DNA of 64,000 bases from Scatophagus argus (lineage: Eukaryota > Chordata > Actinopteri > Scatophagidae), in NCBI RefSeq assembly GCF_020382885.2, contig NC_058506.1, positions 21,735,318 through 21,799,317 on the forward strand, written 5' to 3'. A program made the translations under genes and the position numbers. Shown here in pieces: positions 8,801-62,876 of this stretch. Position 1 is the stretch's first letter; each line of letters begins with the position of its first letter. The notes under the pieces were generated by a model, which saw only the letters and a program-made list of their open reading frames with translations, was not told the origin of the DNA and made no database searches.

Positions 8801-11736
8801 GACTGCGCTCAGTAAAGACATAAAAAAGGAAGCTAAATTCAACATTTACTGCCAGTTTTCACAGTGACCTGGAGAGAAAATGCTCTAGTAACAAATTAAA
8901 GTTCTTTTCTCATTTCAAATAAAATAAGAACAGGTGGACAAATCGTACATCATTCTGCATTTTAACACTGAAGCCAACGTTTGATGACGAGACGTCCATT
9001 CAAACATCCAGACCCTGAAATGCCTTCATAAAATAAAGTGACACACACAAGAGGTTCTGAAAGCCAAAGCCCTCGTGTCTCCTGAACACCTGCTGAAGCT
9101 GGAGTCACCTGTGTTCTGAGAGTGAAGCCTTCTCTGCAGCAAAGGTCTTCTGACCAGCCAGCATCACCACTTTCAGAGTGGTTCCCTCTGCATATGATGT
9201 GAACACTTTGTAAACCTGCACAGGAGAACATAACAGCTGAGCCTGTTATCAATCCATGCAGGAAACATGACCAGATTATGTCATCCAGGTTTTGTTTTTG
9301 AAGATTACGACCTGCTGGGCGAGCTCTTTGGTGGGCAACACAGCCAAAGCCCGGACTTCACACACCACCCGCTCCATCAGCACCTGGTGGGAGAGAACGT
9401 TTTTGTTTCATCTGAGAGTCTTTCTGCGTGTTCCTTCAAACACACACACAGTAGAGCCCGTACATGTCGTACGCATTTCAAAACTGACGGTGGGCAGCTC
9501 ACCTGTATGACAGGTAGGACGAATGCAAGGGTCTTGCCGCTCCCTGTTGGTGCAGACACACAAATATCTCTGGGTTTGTAGCCGCCTCGTCCAATCAGCA
9601 GCCCCTGCTGTGCGCTCTCCAAGATGGCCGGGATGACCTCCTTTTGTACTGCGAAAAGGTCAGAGTATTGGTGTAAACCTTTGTTTCTCAAGTGCCTGCA
9701 CCTACACACACAACACACACTGTTTGCCACACAGGAGACACCATCTCTTGCGTGCACCATATCCGTTAATACGACTTATCTTCACAAAGTCATAAAACAC
9801 TAATGTGACTTAGTTTGACTTGAGTTTGTGACATTTATGAACTAACAGCAATATTAAGTGAAAACATGCATTTCTCAATCACTTAGCGTTAAATACACAA
9901 AGAACTACAGGCTGTGGTTACCTGGAAAAAGGTGCTGAATTCCATTATTTTGTAGTTTTTTTACAAGATGAGCAGAAAGTCCTGGGATGTCAGAAATGGG
10001 GACCAGGTTGCTTTTAATGTCTCTGTGTATCACATCAGGCTGAGCGAGCCACTGAGGCAGGACTCTGTGAACCTGAGGAAGGAAGAGTTCACACACTGAG
10101 GATTAATATTAGTGGTACTGAAGACCCTGACGCTTCAGCACCGTGAACGCATCACTGCACCTTTTGGACGGGTTTGTTCTCAAATCCACCCAGAACTGTG
10201 AATCCAGTTGGAGTAGAAGTCTTTGCTGTGGTTTGTTTTGGTGTGTCATTTTCTGTCTCTGCTTCCTCTTCTTGTTCTTCTCCTCCTCCTGAGTCCTTCT
10301 GTTCATCTCTTCCAGTCACACAAGTGTCTGCAAGACCTTTAACACCACAGAAAACCTGTCACGGACATCACACATCTCCACCCAAGTAAAGAAAGCTCGG
10401 AAACAACTGTACTTTTTAAGGAAATCTAAGAAGCCGAGATTCCCAAGTTGTTAGCTTTTACAGGGAAGCAACAGAAAGCATCCTGACTGCAAACTTGTGT
10501 GGTTCATGCATAAATCTGGACAGAACAACCACATACCTGACTGATCTGTTTTCTTCTTCTTCTGTTTCTCAGTTGTTTCCTTCTCCTTTTTCTCTTTGAT
10601 GGGCTCGTCACGAGTATCAGAGCCTGAGACAAACAAAGGCTCCACTTCAGATTTCCTCTTTTTGTGGTGTTGAGGTTCTTGACTGCTGTCCTTGTCAGCT
10701 TTTCTTTTCTTTTTGACATCACGCTGTTCTGTCTGTTGATCAGCTGGGTGTTGTCTCTGTTCTGCCAAACTCTGTTTTTGCTTCTCTTTTGCTTTCTGCT
10801 GCAGTTTAGCCAGCAGCGCCTGAGACCGGGACTCCTTTGAGATGCTCCCATCTCCCTCCTCACCAAGATATCTGCAAGCAACATAACAGATATACAAATT
10901 CTTCAGTCCACTTCTTCCATACAGCCACATTACAACAGCTTTCGGTCACTTTGGTAGCTTATGACCTCATAAACATATGGCTTTGTGTTCACAATTATGT
11001 TCAGGTTGGAGAAGCGGCTTGTGATTGGAGGGTCACCGGTTCGATTCCCCCACCGGATGGGCAGGAAAAATTTGGGTGTGGAGGAGTGATTAATGCGAAA
11101 AATGCTCCCCCCTCCATTAGCTGGCTGATGTGCCCTTGAGCAAGGCACTTAACCCCCCAATATGCTCCCCGGGCGCTTGACGCTGCCCACTGCTCCTGTG
11201 TGTGTTTCACTGCATGTAATTTGCCAAGTGTTGCATGTGTGTGTTCAACTAAGGATGGGTCAAATGCAGAAGACGAATTCAGTGTGTGTGTGTGTAAAAA
11301 TATATATACTGTCAATAAAGCTGATTCTTCTTCTTCTTAGAATTTTCTGACTTGCTCCAAGTATTTTCCATTGCAGACTCATTTCTCTGTAAAGTTTCAA
11401 ATTCCCAAAATTGATGATCTTATCAGACACTTGTGAATAACGCTGATATAAATAGCCTCTTAGTTGGAAGGTATCTTTCATCCTGTATGAAGTTTGTTAA
11501 GGGATGGTTTTATCATTGCCTGCCGTGCTAGACAGCTGCCCAATGTTACTGAGACAGACAAGATCGGAATCACCACTTTTAAAAGAGAAAAGCTTTTTGA
11601 TTCAATGTTTAGATCAATAAAAGACCACTTCACTAAATAACAATAAATATAATATGACATAACTTAAAAAAAGCGAGACCAGTGATGCAAGGTAGTACAG
11701 AAAATGAGCCTACCTGTTCACAAGAAACAAAGACAT
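5815..11736 (-). CDS. ddx51: ATP-dependent RNA helicase DDX51
   Basis: DEAD-box helicase family (yeast Dbp6 relative) acting in the nucleolus on 60S ribosomal subunit assembly. Sixteen exons, in transcript order: 11714-11736, 10537-10871, 10161-10327, 9922-10072, 9503-9648, 9312-9383, about 9109-9215, 8484-8592, 8259-8404, 7501-7702, 7267-7382, 7050-7166, 6544-6645, 6354-6417, 6127-6261, 5815-5832. All phases agree and give 669 residues (human about 666). The order is a lysine/glutamate-rich N-terminal region (residues 9-160), LGGF core start, Q-motif region FPVQ, motif I APTGSGKT (about 258), Ia PTKELAQQ, Ib [14 protein letters not shown] (about 373), [24 protein letters not shown] and [12 protein letters not shown] (about 597). 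All catalytic motifs are intact. Exon 1 encodes only MSLFLVN plus two bases, and the last exon only DEKAK. The GRGGYKPRD and DDX51-type C-terminal region separate it from other DEAD-box genes. Confidence 0.96.
6761..6794 (+). repeat. (AC)n microsatellite in a ddx51 intron
   Basis: About 17 AC units with one AT interruption, in the intron between the exons at 6544-6645 and 7050-7166. Confidence 0.85.
7925..8030 (+). repeat. LINE-type 3' tail fragment in a ddx51 intron
   Basis: About 105 bp resembling the common fish repeat tail: a segment beginning CCAGGGTGAACCCCGCCTC, then GGATAGGCTCCAGCTCCC, then GGTATAGAAAATGGATGGATG. I know this tail from L2/Maui-like LINEs of fish and elements that borrow their 3' ends. 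No reverse transcriptase frame is present, so this is a short truncated copy. The family name is from memory and not checked. Confidence 0.6.
11004..11339 (+). repeat. tRNA-derived SINE copy 1, 5'-truncated, in ddx51 intron 1
   Basis: The sequence aligns by eye with the fuller copy at 60891-61200 over nearly its whole length. Shared landmarks are GGAGAAGCGGCTTGTGATTGG, the box-B-like GGTTCGATTCCCC, the segment TGTGCCCTTGAGCAAGGCAC, and GCTCCCCGGGCGCTTGA. The copy ends in CAATAAAG followed by TTC repeats, a tail type seen in fish SINEs. It lacks the first ~20 bases, including box A, so it looks 5'-truncated. It lies antisense to ddx51. Confidence 0.8.
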
Positions 11737-15750: not shown

Positions 15751-18700
15751 GCAAGTTCCACCACCTTTTTCCTCTCGCTCTTCAGTCATGTTCCATTGGG
15801 CCTCTCGCTGTGAGGAGCCTGACAGCAACACTTTCTAGGTGCTAACGTGCGGATGACTTCCCTACAGGTTTCTTCAGTCACGCAGACCACAGCGACGGAG
15901 AAGGAGGTTCTTTCCCAGCTGCTTCAAGAAAAAGATCAGCTCCAGCGAGAACAGGAGGACAGGATCAGAAACCTGACCAAACTGCTCGTCACCAGCTCCA
16001 ACCCGGTTCCTGTTCAAAAGGTAAACTCAAAACGAAGCTGTAGTTAAGAGCTCGGCGTTCTGTGCATTATCGTAGTCATAATGCCTCACATCTTGTTTTT
16101 AAGATGCCCAAACGTAGGGTTACGTGGGGAGGAAAGATGCTCAGACTCGCCCGTCCGTCTGCCTGTGGTGGTGGTTCATCTGACCTCAGCTTTGCAGAAC
16201 CTTTGACTCGAAAGAGGAAGGCAGACCGCTCCTGTCTGATGGAGCTCGGTGAAGGTAGGGACAGCCACATAAAATAACATTAAAAAAAAAAAAAAAAAGT
16301 ATATGCCCACTGCAATTGATTGTATATTTTAACAGATGATGAGGACTTTGACTCTCACTGGGAGATTCCTGATGAGCCATCGGATGAAATGGACATGAGC
16401 CAGAGCTCCGTGACTGTTCGAAGCTTTGAAGACAGGTGAATGTCTTTCTGCTCACAGTTAGAGCAGATAGCTGTTTACACAGCAGTGGGCGAAATAGACA
16501 AAGTCTTATATCGCGATATTTCATTTTATTTTATGTTGAAAACTGTTCATACGAGAAGCAGGGCACATCATCACATTTCTGCTGTTGGTTCTGTGACATT
16601 TCACTGAACTGGACGCAAGCTCAAGGCTCTTGTATGTGCAACAATACTCTGGTCTTTGAGCGATTTTAGGTAGTTAGTCATGTTAATATTTTCTCTTTTT
16701 TTCCAGTCCCAAAGACTATCTGTATCCAGATCGGATGCGTGAGCTTTCAGGGAAAGTTTCCACTCTTGAGCTGCAGCTGGAAATGGAGAGTAAACAGAAA
16801 GAGGAGGCCATGACAAAAGTGGAAACATTAGATGGCAGAATGGCAGAGCTGGAAGTGCAGCTGCAAATGGAGGCCCAGCAGAAACAGGAGGCCTTGGAGA
16901 AAATACAGACGGCAGAGCAGAAGGCAGCTGAGCTGCAGCTGCAGCTGCAAACAGAAGCCCAGCAGAAACAGGAGGCCACAGAAAAGGGGGACATGCTGGA
17001 GATCCGAATTGCAGACCTGGAGAGACAGCTGGAGGAGCAGGGCCACACTCAGAACAAAGCCGATGAACAGGTGTGTGTGAGTGTGCGCACCTTTTGCATA
17101 CTGTTCATCATTTTCCCACTGACTCGGTTGTGTTTGCTGGTTTGGTACTAAACCAAATACCTTGTTTTCCAGATGAGAAGAGAGTTTGCAGAGACCATCC
17201 AGCTGTGTGAAACTCTGGCTGCAGAGAAGGTAGCTATTGATGGAAAGCCTGGGCTGTGACTGACTCGTCTCAAAACTCAGTACTTTGTTCTCCATGTAGA
17301 GAAAATCTCGCAGGTTTTCTGTCTTGTGCCTCCTGGACAAGAAATTAAATGAGTTAATACACAGCAACAAAAGCTTGATGGCCTGTCATCACTGATGATT
17401 TGTTTATTTGTATTGAATTATTTCTACAGAGTCAGGATCTCTGAATGAAGGAAACTGTTTCGTTAAGAAAAAGATATGCATTTATTCAAGCTACCGGTGA
17501 TTTGAAAAACTTAAGCTGATGAAACTCTGGCTACAGGACATGGTGGTTGGCGAGCGAGACTACCTGAAGCAGGAGCTGGGCATGTTCATCGAGCAGATCT
17601 CAAGTCTGGAGAAAGAGAACGCTGCTCTGTCGCAGGAGCTGGACGAGAAGAGGGAGACGGACGAGTTCAAGTCTCTGGAGGAGGAGTTCAGGAAGGAGCA
17701 CGAGGTAAAATGGCCTCCATTCACACTCCACATATAGTCCTTGGTTGTTTTTTTGTTTTTTTTCAAACCGCATTCATTTTTCTCACAGAACGAGTTGCAA
17801 AATGAAATATCAAGCCTGAAGAAGGCTGTCGAGTCCTCTGAGCTCCAGCACCTGGAGCTTCAGGTAAGATGCCACACCTGAGTCCCTCCTCAGGTCTATT
17901 CAATGTCAACGTCTGTCTTAAGTGTGGTTACATCTGTTTTGTGTGACATACTCACACACTTTAAAGTACCACAGTGCTTACTGCTGAGTTTTAAGCTTTA
18001 AGCCACAATTCTGTAAATCGTTTGTTTTATTACAAGCCAGACTGAAATTGTTCTGAAACAGTTTTGTCAAATATTTTTTGTTTTGTTGTTTTATCAAGAA
18101 CAAACTAGAAACCCTGTCTGAGGAGCTGAAGAAGAAAAGTGATTTTGCAGAGGAGCTTCAGAATATGGTATGTGTGTGTGTGAGTGAGAGTGATACCGTA
18201 TATGGTGAAACACAATATGTTTGAATTCATGCTTGAGGCGTCCTCTGCCATTAATCAGGCTAATCCTGTCCTGTCGTCTCCTTGCAGAGCGGTAAGGACT
18301 TGGTGCAAGAGGTGGCGAAGCTTCGTCGCTCTCTGGATGATGCTGAGGGGCTCAGCAGAGACACCAAGAAGGACTGGGCTGTGCTGCGCAGTCAGAACAT
18401 CACGCTGGAAGAGAAAGTCGTGAGTGCGATCAACACCCACAAACAAAGTGCTTCTTCCAGCGTCTGACACTGTAACGATGCAGGGATACTTTAGTGTGGT
18501 CGCTGAATTAAAATAACACTTTAGCTTTTGAATTCCTCTATGGTTTCAACACAAGGACTAGTGGCATTAAGGCAAATATCAGTGTGTTTGGTTTTTTTTT
18601 TTTTTAATTTAGTGTTTCTTGTGATGGTCTCCTCTCCAGGTGACTCTGACTGCCAGCCATGAGAAGATGGACGCTGAGGTGAACAGCCTGCGTTTTCAGC

Positions 18701-21700
18701 TCGAGACGGAGAAGTCGCGCTATAAAAAGATGCAGAGCGATCTGCAAAAGGAGCTGAACGTTGTGTTCGATGAGAACACCAAGCTCACAACTCTGCTGGA
18801 TGGGAAAGTCCCAAAAAGTAGGTTTGTTGACTCTATTGTGGGTGCATACATTATGTTCATCCTGTGAAGTCAGGTGTGAGCTGTAATGTGTTCCCTGTCT
18901 GTAGACCTGATAGACGGCGTGGAGCTCGAGAGAACAGTGGCTAACCTGAACAAGGAGCTGACGGCATCTCGTGAAGCAGAAGGAGCCCTCAGAGCCCAGC
19001 TGGAGGAACTGGCTTCATTCCAGGCTCTTCCAGAAAAGGTGGACGACTTGATGAAGCAGGTCAGGCCTCCGAACATCCTGGGAGGACAGGGTCTGACTGA
19101 GTACGCAGACGTAATCCCATGATTCCACTGTGTGTCGTCTCAGGTGTGCGAGCTGACGGAGGAGCTGAGTGCAGTGCAGACTCACCGCGACAGCCTGCTC
19201 TCAGTCCAAGCTCAGTGTCAGGAGGAGGCTCAGCAGCTCAGAGACTCTCTGCAGGCGGCCCAGGACCACAATCTGAAAGTCCAAGCAGACCTCAGTGCCG
19301 CTGAGCTGAGGGAGGCGCAGCTGAACCAGCAGTGTGCTGATGTAACGCAGCAGCTGGATTCGGTTCGCTCAGACCTGCAGCTCTCCGATGCTGAGAAGAG
19401 TCAGCTCATGGCTACCAATGAGGAGACAGGCCTGAAGGTAAACTGTGGAATATAAATACGACGTGTCAAACAAAAACAAGTTATTTCAATACAAACTTCA
19501 TCCACATTTACAGAAATACTAGATGAGACTTGTTACTAGCAGATATGCAATATTTAAAGACTGGGATGGAGAGCAGGGCCAAAAATCTTAACCAGGACCT
19601 CCCTACAACGAAGTCACGGTGATGATTTCCTTTCAGCTGGAGGAGAGTGAACGACACAGATCATCACTGGAGGAAAAAGTGAAGGAGATGCTGCAGCTGA
19701 TGAGGGATTTGGAGGAGAAGCTTGCTGACAGTGAAACCTCCAGAGCTACAGAGGAGGAGATCAGCAAAGAACTTCAAGAACAAGTACGACACTGATGACC
19801 CTTTTACTGACTTGAACACTCAGACGTGACATTCGGCGTCAAGGCAGAAATCTTTGTTCTGCATAGCACTTGTATTTGAGTGATACCAAAAATGTACCCG
19901 TGTTATTTTATTTGTGTGATTGCAGCTCAATCAGCTGACTGAAGAGCTCGTGTGTGTGCGCGCTCAGAAAGAGCAGGAAGCTGACGCTCAGAGCTCTGCA
20001 GAGGAGATGGAGAAGCTGCTCTCCACAGTTTCGGCTATCACTGCAGAGAGAGACCAGCTCAGGATGGACCTGCAGGAAAATGTGCAGATGGTGAGCTGGA
20101 TTTTCTAGCCAAACCAGCTGATTAGTGTGTCTGTTCAGAACTACTTGAGTTCATGTGTTGTGTTTTTAAATTCACACAATGTTCCCTCGTGTTTAGGCTG
20201 CAGAGACACAAGCTCTTCTACAGTCTCTTCAGGATGACCTCCAACAGCAGAGGCAGAAGAACTCGGAGCTGCTGAAACTCCACGAGCAGAAGGACTCTGA
20301 TGTGAGTTAATGTTAGCGAAGCAGCTTTTTTTAAACTGATCCCTCACACCTGACTGATGTTTGTAAATCTTTACGACAGCTGCAGAGCCAGACGCAGGAG
20401 CTTCAGTGTGCGCGACAGGAGAAGGAGGCTCTCCAGATGGCCGATGTTCAGAGCTCTGCAGAGGAGATGGAGAAGCTGCTCTCTGCTGTGGCCTCTCTCA
20501 CTGCAGAGAGAGACCAGCTCAAGATGGATCTGCACGAAAATGTGGAGATGGTGAGTTACTGTGTGAGAATGCATTCATTTCCATCAGCTGTGTTTGGGCT
20601 TCTGCTTTTTGTTTTTGGCTCTGCAAGTTAAAATCTATTTTTTTTTTCTTCCACCAATCAGATGATTGAGAATCAGGAGGAACTGAGGACGACCCTGGAC
20701 AAGAATCGTGAACAGAAGGAGCGAATCAAACAGCTGGAGGCTGCACAAACATCCAAAGCGGATTGTCCTCCCAGTGAGACGAGTCCACAGCCAGAGGAGC
20801 TGCAAACGCATGTGAGAAATTCCTCATTAGACATTTAACACAAATCTCAAATGATAATACCATATTTACTGTGTGCCAACTTCAGGTCAGATTTCTTTTC
20901 CCATCCACTGCTTAGGCCTCAAAATGGCTTCTTCCTCATAAAAATGGAGGCCAAGGATCATGTGTATCATTGGATCCACCGCAAAGTCCCAAACTAGAGT
21001 GGAGGGAAGAACGTGATTTCTCAGAAAAAGGTTCAATAAAAACTGACGTTCATAACGTGAAATTGTAGGATTGTTGCGTGTTTCTCTGCTGAGAATATCA
21101 TGAAAAGAAAAATTGAGGATGAGGATAATGAGGATAAAGACTTCCAAAACAAACACCTCCTCCCAGTTCATAACTTCATACTCACTGCTACAGACACACT
21201 TCGGTCAGTGACAATAAAACAGCCCAAGTACAGAAAGATTAAACGTATCCCGACTAAATAAATCCTAACTTGAAGGGTTTTCTACATTTTTATTCACCAG
21301 ATGAAGTCTCTGTCCGAGGAGCTCGAGAGAGTGCGAGCAGAGCGAGACGGCCTGCTGTCCGACAGGAAGGCCGACGCTCAGACACACGGCGAGCAGGTGG
21401 AGAAGCTGCTGTCCAGGGTGACGTCACTCGGCGAGGAGAGAGACGAGCTGCTGGAGACGCTGGAGGCGCTGAGGCAGGAGAAGCAGCAGCTCCGAGCCGA
21501 GCTGGAGGACAGGATGGAGATGGTACCTTAACACGGTTTCTCCTAAAGTGCTGTTTATGTTTGACTGATTATTTCATATCTGCTTGAGTCCAGAACTGCC
21601 TGGAAAGAGAAAGAAAAAGTGATTTGTTTTCTGTCGCAGGTTGCACAAGCCCATGTTGGGTTTAACCAGCCAGAGGTGCTGCATTCAGAGCTTCAAGCAC

Positions 21701-24700
21701 ATGATGCAACTGTCCAACTTCAGCAAGAGGTAACAGCAGTTAACGTCTTATTGCCAAAAAAATCCCATGAAAAGACCAAAATCAACAATAAATGTACCCT
21801 GACAAATACTGTGTGTTTGTAAAGCCTGATATACACACTACATCACCAAATGAGGGATATTAACAATGAAAATATTCCCCACAAATGCACTTTTTCCTCC
21901 TGTTGAGTAGCTTTAAAAACCACCACAACCACATGTTTTAGAGTAGTTGAGTAGTTCTTTATAGTTGTCAGCCGAGGACACATCAAATCAGAGGTTGTAA
22001 AATAAGACGAAGTGTTAATGAGATGAACTCACCCGTTGTTGGTTTTGGTCTCTTTATTGGATTCGTTGACATGATGACAAACATGGAATAACGCCAGTCT
22101 AATCCTTATCCAATTCTGTTTTAATTTAGCATATATTATATAATCTGTCCATTTTCCTCCACAGATAGAGCAACTACAGGCCAGCCTCCAGGCTGTCAGT
22201 GAGCAGAAGAGCAAGCTGGAAGATGATCTGCAACATAATATGGAGATGGTGAGTTGCTGTTTTTGGGCAGACTCCAAGATTTTGGGGTTCAAGTGTGATC
22301 AAGCTACCAGCGATGTTCAGTCCCAGATTTCTTTATACTTTATTTCTTTTATATGCACGAATGGATGACATTTCCAACTTTTTCTCCCCTAATAGGCTAC
22401 AGAGACTCAAAACCTTCTACACTCACTTGAGCAGCAGCTCCAAGACCAGAATCAAAGAAACATTGACCTGGAAAGACTGAGTGCAGAGAGGCAAGCTCAG
22501 CTGGAACAACAGGTGTGTTCCTTCAACATATTTCACTAAAGCTGTGTGCTTCCAAGTATTTTTCTGCAGGATGTCTTTAGCCTCTTTGATATTCTTTTGA
22601 ACTGTAAAGTGTTCTCTTCTTTTAGATTGCAGAGACTCAGTGTCTTCTGCATTCTCTTCAAGAGGAGCTCCAAGAGCAGAAGCAAAGGAGTTCAGACCAT
22701 ATGAAACTCTGCGAGCAGAAGGAATCTGACTTAGAGCAACAGGTGAGTTGAAGTACTGATGAAGGATTTTTTTTTAAACAGATCTTTCATTGTCAGAGTG
22801 CTGACTGTTAGCTGTAAACCCTCACGTTCAAACAGAAGAAGACTTTAACCGAGCAGCTTGAGAGTGTGCGAGCAGAGAGGGATGCCCTGCTGTGTGAGGA
22901 GGCCAGCGGTCAGACCTCCACAGAGGAGGTGGAGAAGCTGCTGTCCAGGGTGACGTCTCTCAGCGAGGAGAGAGACGAGCTGCTGGAGACGCTGGAGGCG
23001 CTGAGGCAGGAGAAGCAGCAGCTCCGAGCCGAGCTGGAGGACAGGATGGAGACACTACAGGCTGAGGTTTGTGTCCCATAGCTTCACTTCTATCAAATAG
23101 CATCAACTGTAGGACTGCACACATTTTTGTAGACACAATAGCAGTTGTGAATGGGCCATTTGGCTTACTGTCTGAAGTGCAGCTGTAGTTGAAAAGGTTT
23201 TGAATTAACCTTGTAACTGCTCCTGACCTCTCAGATGTGGACTCTCACTGAGAAACTCCAGAGTGCTGAAGCAGAGAGAGACAAACTGCTGTGTGAGAAG
23301 GAAGCCAGCGGTCAGACCTCCACGGAGGAGGCGGAGAAGCTGCTGTCCAGGGTGACGTCTCTCAGCGAGGAGAGAGACGAGCTGCAGGAGGCGCTGGAGG
23401 CGCTGAGGCAGGAGAAGCAGCAGCTCAGAGCCCAGCTGGAGGACAGGATGGAGATGGTAAAAACTGGGGCTGAATGCTATAAATTGAGATTCTGGTGCAT
23501 CCGGTGAATTCTCACTAAAATCTGATGATCTGCCAAACCCTGGGATGTTTAGCATGTGTGTCTGTGTACACCTTTGTGTTCACGTCTCCAATCATATGAA
23601 AAGGTCAATGAACCAGATTGGCATCCCCAACCGGAGCAAGCAGGACTGACAGTGTTCAATAGGATGAGTGCAGAAGAGTCAACAACAGTCCAACAAACTC
23701 ATTATATTCAAATTTGAAAGGATCAAATTTCAAAATATTCGAATGAGCAGTGTTAAATGATTTATGATCCATGAGAGAACCTTCAAACCTGACCAAATGG
23801 AGGTCATATTGTTCTCCATGTGTTTCAGGCGCAGTGTGAGTTACAGCAGCAGCTCAGCTCTGAGCCGCAGTCGCTGAAAGAAGAACAAGAGGCTCAACGA
23901 CTTCTGCAGGTTCGATCTCATCGCTCGCTTGTTCTCATCGTTACACCAGCAACACTTTCACATTCTGGCTTTAGTTTTCATTTTGTCCCCAAACAAAGAA
24001 CATGAAACCACTTGCTCCATTCTGCACTGAGCTACTGTGTTAACTTTGGAGCTTAGTGCTCATGCATTCAGCCTCGTGAGAAAATCGGACCAATACTGAA
24101 AATTATCCCTGTGTGGTGCTTTAGATCCAACAGCTGGAGGAGCATCTGGAGAAATCAAAAGAGGAGTTGAACCAGTTGAAGTCTGACCTTCAAGAAAATG
24201 TAGAACTGGTGAGTTCCCATTTTCCTCTTTATTCCAATTACTACACATTAGAGCTTTTAATCAGAAATCAAAGAAAAAGGTCAGTCAAGTTCTTCCACTG
24301 CAAAAGGAGACACACCATCTCTTTATGGAGCTGTTTGTGGCTTTGGAACGGAAAAGATCTCCACTTGTAGTGTCACGTGACGATCGTAATATCTTTCAGA
24401 TGATTGAGAACCAAGAGGAGCTGCGTGTGTCTCAGGAGAACATCAGAGTTCTGCAAGATGAGATCACCACGCTGAGGAGCCAAAAGGCAGAGCTGGAGGG
24501 CAGGCTGAGCAGAGGGGGTGATGCAGAGACTACCATCCAGACACAGGAGCTCCAAAACCAGGCAGGACTGCGTCTCAAGAGTGAACCTGCTAACGCTGCC
24601 AGTCATATCTTGAGCAGATAAACTAATTTTATGCACATTTTTAGATTCCTTGTTAACTATCTGAAGTTGCGATGAATTCTTGGCCAGATTTTTGAAAACC

Positions 24701-27700
24701 TTTTTCAGCAAGCTTATTCAAATAGAGATGTTATAGTCACATCGTGTCCAATATTTGACGTAACATTAACATCTCTGTTCTCTGACAGATTCAGACGCTG
24801 ACCGAGGAGTTCGAGAGAGTGCGAGCAGAGCGAGACGGTCTGATGTCCGACAGGAAGGCCGACGCTCAGACACACGGCGAGCAGGTGGAGAAACTGCTGT
24901 CCAGGGTGACGTCTCTCGGCCAGGAGAGAGACGAGCTGCTGGAGACGCTGGAGGCGCTGAGGCAGGAGAAGCAGCAGCTCAGAGCCGAGCTGGAGGACAG
25001 GATGGAGACACTACAGGCTGAGGTTTGTAAACGTTTATCCTGCCTACTTCTGTGTACAGATGTGTTGTTATCTGGCATCTTCACCAGCTATGTTTTAGGT
25101 CATTTGCCAGTTTGTCCACGTGTTTATCACATTTCTTCAAGAACAAAATCACCGAGGACACATCAAAATAAAAAGATGTTTATTTTGGCTCTAAGCTGTG
25201 ATGGTGCACCGTGGCTTTAGCCCTTCAGTGTACTGATCATTTCCTGTTTCATTTGAACGACTGGCCTGTCTGTTCTTGAACAGATCGCACAGCTGAGTGT
25301 GTCTCTGCAGACTGTGAGCGAGCAGAAGAGGCAGCTGGAAGAGGATCTGCAGCAGAACATGAACGAGGTGAGGCAGCTCGTCATCACATGAGCCAACTTA
25401 GCTGCTGTCACACATCATAGATGACAGCAGGCTTGTGCCGAGCTTGAAAATTTTCCTCAATATTATTTAATTAATCTCCACTTTTGGATAATTTAATTTC
25501 CTATACATTTCCAGTTTTGTGCTCCTACTGACATGTTTGTATTTTGACTGACAAAAGGCCTCCACAACACAAGAGCTTCTAAAGTCGGTCCAAGAGGAAC
25601 TGCGTGAACTGAAGCAGATGCACTCTGATCTGGAGAAGCTGAGTCGGGAGAAGGAGCGTTCTTTAGATCAGCAGGTTTGTGTCTGACCACCTCCCTTTGT
25701 CATCTGCTTTCATGAAACACTTCTCTTCACAGCAGGATTATCCCTCCAACTGTTCCCTTCTTTCCAGATAAGGACTTTGACTGAGAAACTGGAGAACGTT
25801 GAAGCCGAGAGACAAAGACTGCTGTGTGAGAAGGAGGCCAGCGGTCAGACCTCCACAGAGGAGGTGGAGAAGCTGCTGTCCAGGGTGACGTCTCTCAGCG
25901 AGGAGAGAGACGAGCTGCTGGAGACGCTGGAGGCGCTGAGGCAGGAGAAGCAGCAGCTCAGAGCCCAGCTGGAGGACAGGATGGAGACACTACAGGCTGA
26001 GGTTTGTGTCCCATAGCTTCACTTCTATCAAATAGCATCAACTGTAGGACTGCACACATTTTTGTAGACACAATAGCAGTTGTGAATGGGCCATTTGGCT
26101 TACTGTCTGAAGTGCAGCTGTAGTTGAAGAGGTTTTGAATTAACCTTGTAACTGCTCCCGACCTCTCAGATGTGGACTCTCACTGAGAAACTCCAGAGTG
26201 CTGAAGCAGAAAGAGACAAACTGCTGTGTGAGAAGGAGGCCAGCGGTCAGACCTCCACGGAGGAGGCGGAGAAGCTGCTGTCCAGGGTGACGTCTCTCGG
26301 CCAGGAGAGAGACGAGCTGCAGGAGGCGCTGGAGGCGCTGAGGCAGGAGAAGCAGCAGCTCAGAGCGCAGCTGGAGGACAGGATGGAGATGGTACATTTG
26401 TGCAATTATAAAGTCACTGGCCACCCAACAACGGCAACTAAGATACGCCTTCAAGCAGACCAAAGGACTTCTGTGTTGTCAGTAAATTTATGTTCTCTTC
26501 CATCTGTAGATCTCAGCCATCCAGCAAAAGGCGAGCGAGCAGGAGAAGCTGAATGTGCAGCAGCAGGCTGAGAGAGAAGAGCAAGAGACCAAGCTGCAAC
26601 AGGAAGTAGGTCCAATTCATTTAAGATGAAAGATTTATGCCACAGGTCACAGCTGTCTGGTAAACACCAGAGTTACAGCTAGAAGCCACATGGCACAAAG
26701 ACTGGAAACGGGGGACGGTTAGCCTGACTCTGAGCAAAGTGGAAAGAATCTACCAAACAGCGCCTCTAAATCTCGCTAATTAACATCAGAAAAACCAGTG
26801 TGAAAATGACACGTCGAGGCTTTAAGGTGGGTTGGGTTCAGACCATCTCTTGGCTGGGTCTAATAACCTCCTGGAGTGTGTTCTGGTTGTCTGAGTGCAG
26901 GTGTAAAATTACTGTTACCAACAACATTTTAGGTGCATTTCACTTTCAGTTTTACCTCCACATAATGTCGGTCAGATAATAAACTGTCAGCATGTCCCCA
27001 AACTCCAGGAGTTACTTTTGTACGTACAGTGTTATCATAACTGATAGAAATGGTAGATAAAGCCAAAAATAAAAATAAGGTCCTAGTTGTAGTAACTCAG
27101 AATCCAGTGGTGTTTTTGCGCCTCTTTTAACATCCTGTCAGCTGTGCTTGCCTGATCTGAAACTTATCGTCTCTGTTACTGTCAGATGCAGCAGCTCGAA
27201 CAGCAGCTTCAAACGTACAGAGAGAAGCAAACTCGTGCTGAGGCTGAAGCCGAAACCTCACAGCAGGTTTGTCAACGCTAGTCGGTTTTCCTGGTCTTTT
27301 GTTTCAGTTCCTCAGATCCTCAATGGATTTCTCATGTGTCATGCTGTTTTGAAGTGGAACCAGCAGCATGACAGTGTGTAGCATCTCCAAAATCAAAAAT
27401 TCTCTATTTAAATTGATTTTCTTTTCTTTCAGTTGCTCAGTGATGCCAACACATCCATTTCAGCACTGCGAGAGCAGCTCAGCAGTTTGAGTCAAAGCAC
27501 CAGTGGAGTCAAAGGGGTGGCGTCGTCACGGCTGCAGGACTCAACTGGGCAGCTTCAGGTAAAAATTATTAATCAACAGCTGATCGGCAAAGACACTCCA
27601 ACATGCAGTAAGAGCTCAGTATGACTCCCTGAATTCTTATAATTGCAGGAGGGCCTCAGAAAATTCCAGCAGTTTGTAGACACTTGTTCCAAGTACAAGT

Positions 27701-30700
27701 CATCAGTTCTGGACAAGGCCCTAAAGGGGGAGAAGCACACGTATCTGACCTCTCTGCCTAAAGCCACCATGAACGCCTACAGCTCTGTCTGTCAGCTGGG
27801 ACTGCAGACTGTTCAGAGTCTGGGCAACATCGTGGTGAGTGTCAGTGTTCACTTCGCTTGAAACTTCATGAAGGTCTCACGCTTTTGATCAGGCGGTAAC
27901 CTGAACACTCCTGCCCTCTGCTTCCCCAGGAGCACCTACAGGTGCAAGCACAGGTCTACAGGAATCTGTTTGGGGAGCTGGTGAAGAAAGACTTGGCTGT
28001 TTTTGAGGAGAGGCGTCTGCAGGACGTCCTGCTGTGCAGAGCTCAGGCATCCAGCTACTCTGTGAAAGATGAGGACTTCCAAACCCTGTGGGAACACAGA
28101 CTGACTGAACTGCTGGACAAGAGGCAGCTCTACCTGCAGGTGGGCTTAGAGAGTCAAAGTGTCTAACATCACAGGGGAAGGTGGGGAATTAAATCATGGA
28201 ATTACGTCTGGTACTTTAAGGCTCAGTTCACATTCATTCAGCTAAAACTGCACTTTTAATGTTGTCAGTTTGACAAAATAAAAACAAATATGGGCTAAAA
28301 AGGCAAAGGTTAAATCATGAGCTTTTTCGCTGTCCTGATTGCTGATTTAGTTTTTTCTGTTATTAAACTGCTTCCCATAGGCCTATATGTTGGTGTGAGC
28401 ATGATGATAGTGCCTTTCACAACGATTAACGACAATAACAATAATGTAGAAGGACAAGCAGCTTTTCCAGCTGAAAAATCTTAGAAATGCACTTCTGAAC
28501 AAATTTAACTTCTGAAACAGAAGGCAGCTGCTTTTTTTTTTTTTTTTTTTTTCCCCCCCAAATATTACTGACATACACACTACAGACAGGATTAAAATCA
28601 CCAGCCACCCACCTCCCCTACAGACATGAAGTCAGTCCAAATGGGGCTTAACAACTTGGGTTTGAGGTTATTTGACACTTCAGTTGTGTTTCTCCAACCT
28701 GTGACTCAGCTATACTGCATGTGAGTCCTGTTCTTTCCATTTCCTCCAACATACTGACAATTTATCCTGATGCCGTTTGGTTTTGTAGAAAATGGTCAGC
28801 ATCTCGGAGAAGCTCTGGGCCAACATGGCTCATTTCCCCAGCGAGCTGTCGGCCGAGGTCGGAGAGAGGGAGAAGTTCAAGGAGCAGCTGCAGGCTGCGT
28901 TCACCACCCAGCCCATCAATTTCACGAGGCTGGACGGCATCCTGAGCCGCGAGCTGGAGCGCAGATCCGCAGTGATACGCAGCTGGAAGACGACTCTGCA
29001 GGTAGTCTTTGACATTCACTTTGTGTGTGGCGTCGCACGTTTTTGATCCCGTCTGTTGATCAGCAGCATGTCTCAAAACAAAAGCTGTGCATTGCAGTGA
29101 TATTTTCTTATCTGTCCAACGTCGTATTGTCCATCCAACTCCTGCAGGGCAACACCGATGACCACAATGGTCTGTGTCAAGAGCTGAAGCTGCTGGAGGC
29201 TCAGGCTGATTCTCAGCTCAGAGAGGAGAGAAGCAAGAGTTCCACCCTGCTGCGAGGGCTGGAGGGAGCTCCCGTGAAGAAAGAGCTCTCGCTGCTGAAG
29301 GACAACCAGCAGCTTGTTCTCAAGCTCCAGCAGAGTGAAGAACAAGTCAGAGTATGTCTGCCATATCCGTTTCACATGTGCTCACGACTGGTACCATCAA
29401 GTAATTTCATTCAGAGTGTAAAGAGTAGGGTTTTCCTCACTAGCTTCTGGGCCAAAGGATCCACCACCTGTTGAACGTCCAAAGCCCTAATTGGATGAGA
29501 AGCTACAGATTAAACTTATTTACTGTTTATCTCAATTTAAGTGCCTTCTCTCATATCCTCTCACGTATTCTACACTCAGTGGATTATAAAGAATGACTTG
29601 CTGATTTGAGTGCTAGATAACAAATAAGCCCACTGCAGTCAAGCCAACACGTACCAAAGCCTGATGTCCTCCTCCTCTCAGCCACAGAGCTCCGTTGTTG
29701 AAACAATTAAACGCATCAGTGAGCCACGTTGTTGCTGCCAGTGTCCTGAAACCGGTCTGATGGCACATGTTGACTGATACCTCTCTGTTTGTCAGGCTCT
29801 GCGTGCACAAAACGGGCAGCTGGAGGAGGCTCAGATCAAAGCCAACAGCAGGGTGTCCAACCAGAAGCAGGCCACCCAGCTCCTGCAGACCGAGCTGCAG
29901 GACAGCCGAGCGCAGGTCCAGGAGAGAGAAGATACGATCCAAACCCTCAGGAGCAAACTGCGAGAGTCTGAGGTTAGTTTAAAGATCTCATTCCCAGGCC
30001 CAGACTAACATTAGAGCAGTCTTATTGTACAAGCACTTTAAATTTCGATTCTATTACCGTACATACACTGAGTGCCTTTTTTAAAATAATATTTGTCGTT
30101 TTCTGGCTTAGAAAAATGCGTCACCCAGCACTGTTGAGCTGGAAAAACTCCGGACTAAACTGTTCAAAGTGGAGGTGGAGTTGAGCTCAGCATCTGATAA
30201 ACACCAACAGGAGTAAGAGCCCTTCAGACGCACTCTGACTCTTGTTTTGTTCTGTTATTGGATTTAATCTTTACTGTATTCACCCCATGAGTGACTATTC
30301 TGACCAGACTTTTGTCCTCCTCAGGATCCAGAGGATGACCACACTGCTGAACGAAAAGGAGGAGTCGCTAAGGAAGCTGAAGGAGACCTTGAGGAAGTCG
30401 CAGCAGCACGGCGAGGAGTCATGTAAGTCAGCAGCGCTCGTCAGGTGGCAACACGGAGCTCCGTGTAGAAGCTCAATCACAACCTAAAAATGAAAGATCT
30501 GTGTAAGATATGAATAAATCCAGTCCCTGCAGGTTTTTTGGTGTATATTGGTAGCCTCATAGCCTTTAACAGCAGCGTTAGACTGATGGACATACGTTCA
30601 TGTTGCAGCCGTAAATAGAACTCCAAATGGATGCTGTTGTTGGCAGCAGTCGAGCCTTAAATCTTATTTTAACCCTGATGTGGTCATGTTGAATTCAGTC

Positions 30701-60599: not shown

Positions 60600-62876
60600 C
60601 TGCTCATTAGGGCCTTTTTTGTCTCCATTGACGGCCTTTAGGAGCACAGCCTCCTCATTCTTCGCGTTGGTCTTCATCTCCACGACGATATCGTCTTTGG
60701 TGGTTTTCTCTTTGGTGCTGCAGGCAGAAACAAAAGCCGACTGCATTGGGACTGAGTATCCTTCAAATCCTATTCCTCTTAAATGTGTGTTTTATTTTTT
60801 TAAAAAAAAAGCTGAGCACTTTTCTAATTCCACTGTAGCTTTGGGCCAAATGTGTCAGGGACTATTTTCAACAGCGTATTAATACAGATTGGGGCAGCCG
60901 TGGCCTAGAGGTCGGAGAAGCGGCTTGTGATTGGAAGGTCGCTGGTTCAATTCCCCCACCGGACGGGCAGGAAACATTTGAGTGTGGTGGAGTGATAATG
61001 TCCCCACCCCCCATTAGCCGGCTGATGTGCCCTTGAGCAAGGCACTTAACCCCCAATATGCTCCCCGGGCGCTTGATGCTGCCCACTGCTCCTGTGTGTG
61101 TTTCACTGCATGTTGCAGGTGTGTGTGTTTCAATCAGTGATGGGTCAAATGCAGAAAAGTAATTTCCCAGCTCGGGATTAATAAAGTAACTTAAATTAAA
61201 ATTTGGTGTTCAGGTGAGTAGGTGCCGCATCAGGATGACATTTTAATAGTTTTTGGACGACAATGAGCTCAGAGGCACATACAGTGGTATGCAAAAGCTT
61301 GGGCCCCCTTAGGGTCTCCTCAGGGCATCACTTTGTCACTTGCTGAGCTTTTGAAGCAGCAACTTCATTTCAACATGTTATACCTTATGGGAAGAAACAT
61401 TTCAGTAGTGAAATAATCTCTATTGGCCCAACAGAAACATTTTTAAGTGCATTTAAACAAAAACAGGCGCATGCATAAATTTGGGCACCCCAAAGAAATA
61501 ATCCCATTAATATTTAGTAGAGCCTCCTTTTGCTGCAATAACAGCCTGTAGACGCCCCCATATCCACAGACCAGTCCCTGAAGACTGGCAGGTGGTATTT
61601 TGGCCCATACAAAACACCTCCAGTTCAGTCTGGTTTCAGCCTGCTTCAAATCAATCCATACATTTTCAGTGATGTTGGGCTCTGGGGACTGGGAACATCC
61701 TACTTGTGCTTCTGCATGAATCCCTTGGTGGATTCTGAACAGTGCTTAGGATCATTGTCCTGCTAAAAAATACAACCCCGGCATAGTCTGCTGATACTGA
61801 GAGGAATCCATGTGGCCCTCAACTTCAACAAGGTTTCCAGTACCTGTGCTAGCCACACAGCCCCATAACATGATGGACCCTCCACCAAATTTCACAGCAG
61901 GCAATAAGTTCTTCTCAAGGAATCCAGTGTGTGTTTTTAGCTTTTCCTGGTGCAAAGGTGAACAACTACACCATCAGCAGCCAGATGTTCTTGTAGTTCT
62001 CTGGAGGTGGTCTGTGGCTTGTCTGTGGCCATGCTAACTGTTCTTCCTCTGTGCCTTTCCTGTATTTTTTTCAGCCTAACACATCTCTCCTTCACAGTGA
62101 CTGCTCCTGTGGCCTTCCCTTTCTGTACCACCTTTCTGACAGTGGAGACACAGTGCAAACCTTCCACATAATTTCTCCTAACTCATAATAAAGAATGATC
62201 TTAGTTTTAGGTCAGTGGAGAGTTGTTTAGAGGCCCCCATGTTCCCCCATCATTTCTAAGAAAGAAACCAGGACAAGCACAGCCAGCAGTTAAATAGCCG
62301 CTGTCATGATTGATTCCACCTGTCTCTGCAACTGAAGCTCCAACGAGCTAATCAAGGCAACCTGTCATCTCTAAATCCTACAGGTCTTGAAATGAATGTG
62401 ATTAAAAGGGTGCCCAAACTTTTAGACATTACATTTTTTCACATTTTATTTTATTATAATAAAACTATGTAATGCTACTCTAAGAATGTCAGTCTGGACA
62501 CCCTCAAATGTCTTCATCTCTGGAGGAAAACAAACCTTGCTGCTGTGATCTTCTCTTGTAAAGGCAGAGCAAATGATCGTGAAGTCTCAGAGGGGTGCAC
62601 AAAGTTTTGCATACCGCTGTAGGTTTAGGACCTATCGGGTTCTGGATTTGGTCTGGTGTTTGCTGACAGAAAGAAGAACGTCCTCAGACTGTCCCCTAAA
62701 TCACGTTTCTGTGTTGTCAAGCAGACTTAGGAGACGCAGCACTCACATGTCCTGTTTCCCTGAGCGTCCACACGGGATCTTCCCCTTCTTGTGCAGGAAG
62801 TAAAGAACGCTGCCGAGGATGGCGAGCAGCAACAGGCTCAGTATGATCACCACGATGATGACGCCGCTGCCCTCGG
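60600..62876 (-). CDS. mcam: Melanoma cell adhesion molecule (CD146), C-terminal exons, partial
   Basis: MCAM is an immunoglobulin-superfamily adhesion receptor of endothelium. Two minus-strand exons are visible. Exon 62747-62876 encodes the membrane span (GVIIVVIILSLLLLAILGSV) and juxtamembrane YFLHKKGKIPCGRSGKQD, very close to human (LYFLYKKGKLPCRRSGKQE). Exon 60600-60717 encodes the cytoplasmic tail (DDIVVEMKTNAKNEEAVLL...NGDKKGPNEQ), aligning with human SELVVEVKSDKLPEEMGLL...GDKRAPGDQ. They join in phase at KQD-I-TKEK. The Ig-domain exons lie beyond the right edge. The convergent cbl-mcam arrangement is the same as on human 11q23.3. The intron between the two exons holds a SINE and a Tc1-like element. 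Which teleost paralogue (mcama or mcamb) this is cannot be told. Confidence 0.88.
60891..61200 (+). repeat. tRNA-derived SINE copy 2, near full length, in an mcam intron
   Basis: Begins GGGGCAGCCGTGGCCTAGAGG (box-A-like), followed by box-B-like GGTTCAATTCCC, the shared body TGTGCCCTTGAGCAAGGCAC, and ends GGGATTAATAAAGTAACTT. It matches the copy at 11004-11339 closely but has the 5' head that the other lacks. It lies antisense to mcam. No clear target-site duplication was identified. Confidence 0.85.
61282..62619 (-). mobile_element. Tc1/mariner DNA transposon, internally deleted and decayed
   Basis: A 1,338-bp element with terminal inverted repeats: CAGTGGTATGCAAAAG at the left, and CAGCGGTATGCAAAAC read from the right end. 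It is flanked on both sides by TA, the Tc1/mariner target duplication. Transposase remnants read on the minus strand: an N-terminal part with GKATGAVTVKERC and KPQTTSRELQEHL (about 62167-61940), then KFGGGSIMLWGCVAS (about 61880), then a QQDNDPKH-type remnant near 61755. The stretch normally between the HTH domain and KFGGGS (roughly 80-90 residues) is missing, and the frame is interrupted, so it is not autonomous. It sits in the mcam intron about 80 bp from the SINE. Confidence 0.88.

Follow-up and report, generated by a model that had tools for sequence, protein, structure and literature searches.

A near-identical exon-intron-exon tract inside an older duplication within a fish cenpe gene, read as probable ectopic gene conversion

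How two introns lying 2.9 kb apart in one gene came to be almost identical, within an exon array whose duplicated blocks are otherwise old and strongly diverged, is the question raised by this locus of Scatophagus argus. The window referred to here is the whole stretch of 64,000 nucleotides that was analysed; it contains no N and lies within a 23.3-Mb contig of a 570.7-Mb assembly in 48 contigs. The gene had been named cenpe in the original prediction, and the motor pieces bear this out. For a 55-aa motor piece the top two PDB sequences are both CENP-E (1t5c, 3.7e-20; 6m4i, 2.1e-19), followed by KIF7 (9.3e-12), and two motor pieces match the kinesin family PF00225, the second slightly below the curated cut-off. 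The rod exons are predicted to be part of the same gene as the CENP-E motor, an assignment that rests on strand and continuity.

The rod region of cenpe appears to be organized as an array of homologous coiled-coil exons. Self-comparison of the window identified six of these, designated M1-M6, which are all in one reading frame from their first base, together with two older relatives near 20007 and 20467. The six exons are as follows.

21301-21522, + strand: exon M1, homologous module, differing from M4 at 12 of 223 positions
22836-23066, + strand: exon M2, 77 codons; near-identical to M5 from 22897 on, whereas the 61 nt at its start are old and diverged
23235-23456, + strand: exon M3, 74 codons
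24789-25022, + strand: exon M4, a mosaic, mostly M1-like with an M2/M5-like 3′ tail that extends 6 bases into the intron
25768-26001, + strand: exon M5, 78 codons
26170-26391, + strand: exon M6, 74 codons

These modules belong to a wider nested array in the cenpe rod (19926-26391) with at least four repeating exon types, including type c at about 20658 and at 24396, type e at 22165 and about 25286, type f/g at 22397, 22626 and 25558, and eight copies of the M type. M2 lacks one codon, at 22896, that is present in the other five M exons, and judged from the sequence this should put the heptads of the coiled coil out of register by one residue. Another coiled-coil exon of cenpe contains three copies spaced by 84 nt (28 aa) at 16759-16977, with identities of 71% and 86% between two of them and the reference copy (51 nt compared). 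Outside the M array, a direct repeat (11003-11279 and 60909-61164) is 84% identical over 277 columns with its copies 50 kb apart, and is perhaps an interspersed element.

The similarity that motivates the present analysis connects the segment running from M2 through M3 with that running from M5 through M6.

22897-23459, + strand: proposed conversion tract, copy 1
25832-26394, + strand: proposed conversion tract, copy 2, by alignment to copy 1
23067-23234, + strand: 168-bp intron, copy 1, with two full matches within the window and two full-length matches found genome-wide
26002-26169, + strand: 168-bp intron, copy 2

Base-by-base alignment of the introns is gap-free with 166 of 168 positions identical, the only differences being at 23194 (A/G) and 23224 (T/C), in agreement with the two originally read from the sequence. 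The flanking exons had likewise been described as almost identical, and this holds: M2 and M5 differ at 2 of 170 positions from 22897 onward, and M3 and M6 at 5. The complete tract is 563 bp long and contains these 9 substitutions (1.6%). Its left edge falls abruptly within exon M2/M5, where a 3-bp indel separates the near-identical part from the diverged first 61 nt (41 of 61 identical, 67%), and its right edge lies at 23459/26394, 3 bases into the intron following M3/M6, beyond which a search for further match between the two copies found none of note. The comparison of 22836-23459 with 25768-26394 in sliding windows, which the original prediction had proposed, places both edges sharply, with divergence in 60-column windows of 0.3-0.6 outside the tract collapsing to 0-0.03 inside it. 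Putatively neutral sites, both synonymous and intronic, share in the identity within the tract, as is expected of ectopic gene conversion.

Upstream of the tract the two copies continue in the same order but with a very different degree of resemblance.

22626-22742, + strand: exon g of block 1, old colinear flank, 117 nt, phase 0
22743-22835, + strand: intron g-M2, 93 bp, equal in length to its block-2 counterpart and diverged from it
25558-25674, + strand: exon g′ of block 2, 117 nt, its 5′ boundary picked by length among four in-frame AG candidates
25675-25767, + strand: intron g′-M5, 93 bp

Exons g and g′ are identical at 69 of 116 aligned positions (59%), and the introns that follow, each exactly 93 bp, at 53 of 85. 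The score of this intron pair (-15) is above the mean of 200 shuffles (-25; maximum -8) and within their range. From exon g through M2 to M3 the offset between the blocks stays nearly fixed, at 2932-2935 bp. The near-identical tract therefore sits within an older and diverged duplication, and since exon g and the 93-bp introns have diverged so far, a single recent duplication is insufficient to account for it. Among other features of these blocks, the donor sites after g′ (25675-25683) and M5 (26002-26010) have nine intron bases in common (GTTTGTGTC), the first six of which are also present at the M4 donor. The segments 20192-20519 and 22621-22981 represent an older duplication, 66% identical over 361 aligned columns, in which some similarity persists across an intron.

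A search of the genome with window positions 23000-23300 found matches at at least seven places, all of them in the cenpe M array and at least two extending over the full query. A multicopy or mobile intron was considered and is not supported, full-length matches being found at two places, with these counts as lower bounds. Searches of bacterial and archaeal genomes and of viral contigs for related loci found no relative. Among the seven pieces of the window a direct repeat with a length of 150 nt or more and an identity of at least 90% occurs only in 20001-30000, where there are two such pairs, one joining M2-M3 to M5-M6 and the other M1 to M4. As controls, 20 stretches of 10 kb were sampled at 1-Mb intervals along the same contig, without matching for gene content; none contains a non-overlapping direct repeat at these thresholds.

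Several lines of evidence from the exons themselves bear on the origin of the tract. Synonymous divergence between M2 and M5 is high over the first 26 codons, with dS 0.93 (9.2 of 17.2 synonymous sites), and falls to 0.03 over the remaining 48 (1 of 34). The longest run shared by this pair spans 19 of 61 polymorphic columns (permutation p 0.0002, Bonferroni-corrected 0.003), where 5000 shuffles in a custom script set 0.0002 as the floor and 15 pairs were compared. Low p values were also obtained for M5-M6 (0.0004) and M2-M6 (0.003); M1-M4 (0.034) fails the correction for 15 pairs, and the remaining 11 pairs give p values of 0.06 or more. Shared polymorphic sites of M2-M5 are thus clustered beyond the permutation expectation, with the caveat that exon parts differ in general: dS is low in the 3′ part of all 15 M pairs (0.03-0.16) and is higher in the 5′ part of 14 of them (0.14-1.26), the exception being M1-M4 with 0.11 in both. 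Because of this general difference the permutation test is not clean by itself, and it is the noncoding intron, free of the bias between exon parts, that carries the argument for conversion. Codon preference was also considered as the basis of the exon identity and was rejected, since the mean synonymous match in the 3′ parts is 0.94 against 0.47 expected; for the 3′ part of M2-M5, 45 of 46 comparable positions have the same synonymous codon, against an expected fraction of 0.45. This control has its limits, as the expectations derive from 685 codons in 12 roughly bounded other exon pieces of cenpe. The M 5′ parts also exceed expectation (0.69 versus 0.45), as homologous exons should.

Taken together, the abrupt edges of the tract and the diverged colinear exon and intron upstream support the preference of the original prediction for gene conversion acting on an older duplication. 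We consider it probable, at roughly 0.83, that intragenic ectopic gene conversion partly overwrote an older block duplication, a figure that covers both plain replacement and the variant in which a cassette was copied. The latter supposes that one block once had a single M exon that became two by copying of M2(3′)-intron-M3 or M5(3′)-intron-M6. In its favour, the two ends of the tract fall in or at homologous exons. In addition, the 5′ part of M5 and the final 31 bp of the intron before it resemble their counterparts at M3/M6 (104 nt at 76-77%), as a single ancestral exon would predict. However, this variant requires a template switch between two different exons and in one genome has the same appearance as plain replacement, and we regard it as the rather unlikely form of the event. 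A recent tandem (segmental) duplication of about 2.9 kb with subsequent deletions or insertions would explain the near-constant offset across exon g, M2 and M3, but it predicts near-identity of exon g, the 93-bp intron and the intron after M3. The unit and its flanks are not equally alike, the flanks being strongly diverged, and we reject this history as improbable.

An error of assembly, by chimera or by the joining of haplotypes in tandem, would also yield two similar copies, and a collapsed or chimeric assembly had been named at the outset as the main alternative. That position is weakened by the different flanks of the copies, the high contiguity of the assembly and the two genomic places of the intron. 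The 9 differences between the copies are scattered, and both copies have open frames and GT-AG ends; with the contiguity and the N-free window described above, these features make an artefact very unlikely. Lastly, purifying selection could in principle have preserved the intron in both copies if it held a hidden RNA or regulatory element, yet neighboring synonymous sites are equally identical. No Rfam family reaches the gathering threshold across 19500-29000, and folding of the intron RNA is ordinary (z -1.05), so that the intron shows no sign of constraint; a structured RNA in it was rejected on these grounds, and we give selection on the intron hardly any weight.

The layout and divergence of the blocks show that an old duplication created the colinear blocks g-M2-M3 and g′-M5-M6, the exons and introns of which then diverged strongly. 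Later one of the blocks presumably suffered a DNA break that was repaired with the other, non-allelic block as template. The copied segment, up to about 560 bp long, would have comprised the 168-bp intron in its entirety, flanked by the 3′ part of M2/M5 and by M3/M6, the latter either complete or only in its first part. All six M exons have similar GC-rich 3′ parts, which most likely provided the homology for strand invasion and resolution, and this would explain why both edges of the tract are in or at exons. Copying of this kind would be tolerated because the M exons start and end on codon boundaries and the frame is kept. As to which block was donor and which acceptor, arguments from the pattern of M modules point both ways. 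Divergence of the tract is K = 0.0162 (0.0074-0.0308), and that of the intron 0.0120. Using mutation rates of 2.0e-9 per base and generation given for Atlantic herring (PMC5524536, in part) and 4.83e-9 for nine-spined stickleback (PMC10503787, in part), K/2u worked by hand for the tract is about 0.8-7.7 million generations. The proposed conversion would accordingly have happened some 1-8 million generations ago, to be taken as a scale and not as a date.

The history of the array is likely to be more complex than two blocks and one exchange. The two blocks do not have one uniform age, a point that speaks against the explanation above: matched pieces of exon pair c (76% of 45 nt) and exon pair e (79% of 68 nt) are less diverged than g and g′ (59%). 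The 5′ part of M5 differs from M3/M6 at 14 of 78 positions and from its positional partner M2 at 23 of 78, and the resemblance of M1 to M4 (94.6%) is confined to the exon, their flanking 168-bp stretches being within the shuffled range; the block history is thus overprinted. The tail of M4 (24996-25028) is identical to M2 at 33 of 33 positions, and this mosaic pattern suggests earlier conversions among other M exons. The M exons have a GC3 of 0.88-0.94 in their 3′ parts compared with 0.54-0.77 in their 5′ parts, and over 18 aligned codons counted by eye, 12 end in G or C in each older relative versus 15 or 16 in M1-M6. From these sequences it looks like conversion among the M exons was repeated and perhaps GC-biased, and protein selection and codon preference may contribute. 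We tentatively raise the broader possibility, on balance doubtful, that the CENP-E rod is in concerted evolution, with repeated and possibly GC-biased conversion across at least six exons maintaining a uniform GC-rich coiled-coil segment.

The process proposed here is well known, and the locus is a clean case of it rather than a new one. Ectopic gene conversion between duplicated sequences (compare PMC3966223) similarly leaves near-identical, abrupt-edged tracts in older diverged duplications, extending to noncoding and synonymous sites; here the copies are instead parts of a single gene, each an exon-intron-exon piece, separated by 2.9 kb and seen in one genome. Relevant comparisons include the intragenic segmental duplications of nebulin and titin (PMC9109913 and PMC9142044, both in part), long structural protein genes that also have repeated exon blocks. 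There, however, whole blocks vary in copy number, whereas in cenpe near-identity is limited to part of an old block. Tandem duplicated exons have been examined for conversion in Dscam as well, and the authors (PMC3236188) report that they found no evidence of it between exons duplicated within arrays 4 and 6, unlike cenpe, where such evidence is present. In dmrt1 of Solea senegalensis exons are likewise duplicated within a fish gene; that duplication exceeds 10 kb, and a SINE was proposed as its cause (PMC7605655). Adaptive sites are reported for mammalian CENP-E in a paper whose main text does not contain the phrase gene conversion (PMC11230421). Targeted literature searches found no paper linking evolution of the CENP-E coiled-coil repeats to gene conversion, none on gene conversion among nebulin triplicate exons or introns, and none on GC-biased conversion or concerted evolution of paralogous coiled-coil exons in intragenic repeats.

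The intron within the tract exposes the conversion without the interference of selection on the protein, which commonly confuses claims of this kind. In this lineage conversion can also distort phylogenies of cenpe exons and dN/dS tests of the gene. The results suggest that the rod of this kinetochore motor is a recombining exon array, and if concerted evolution of the rod proved true, modules could be added or swapped, allowing quick change in the sequence or length of the kinetochore-motor rod.
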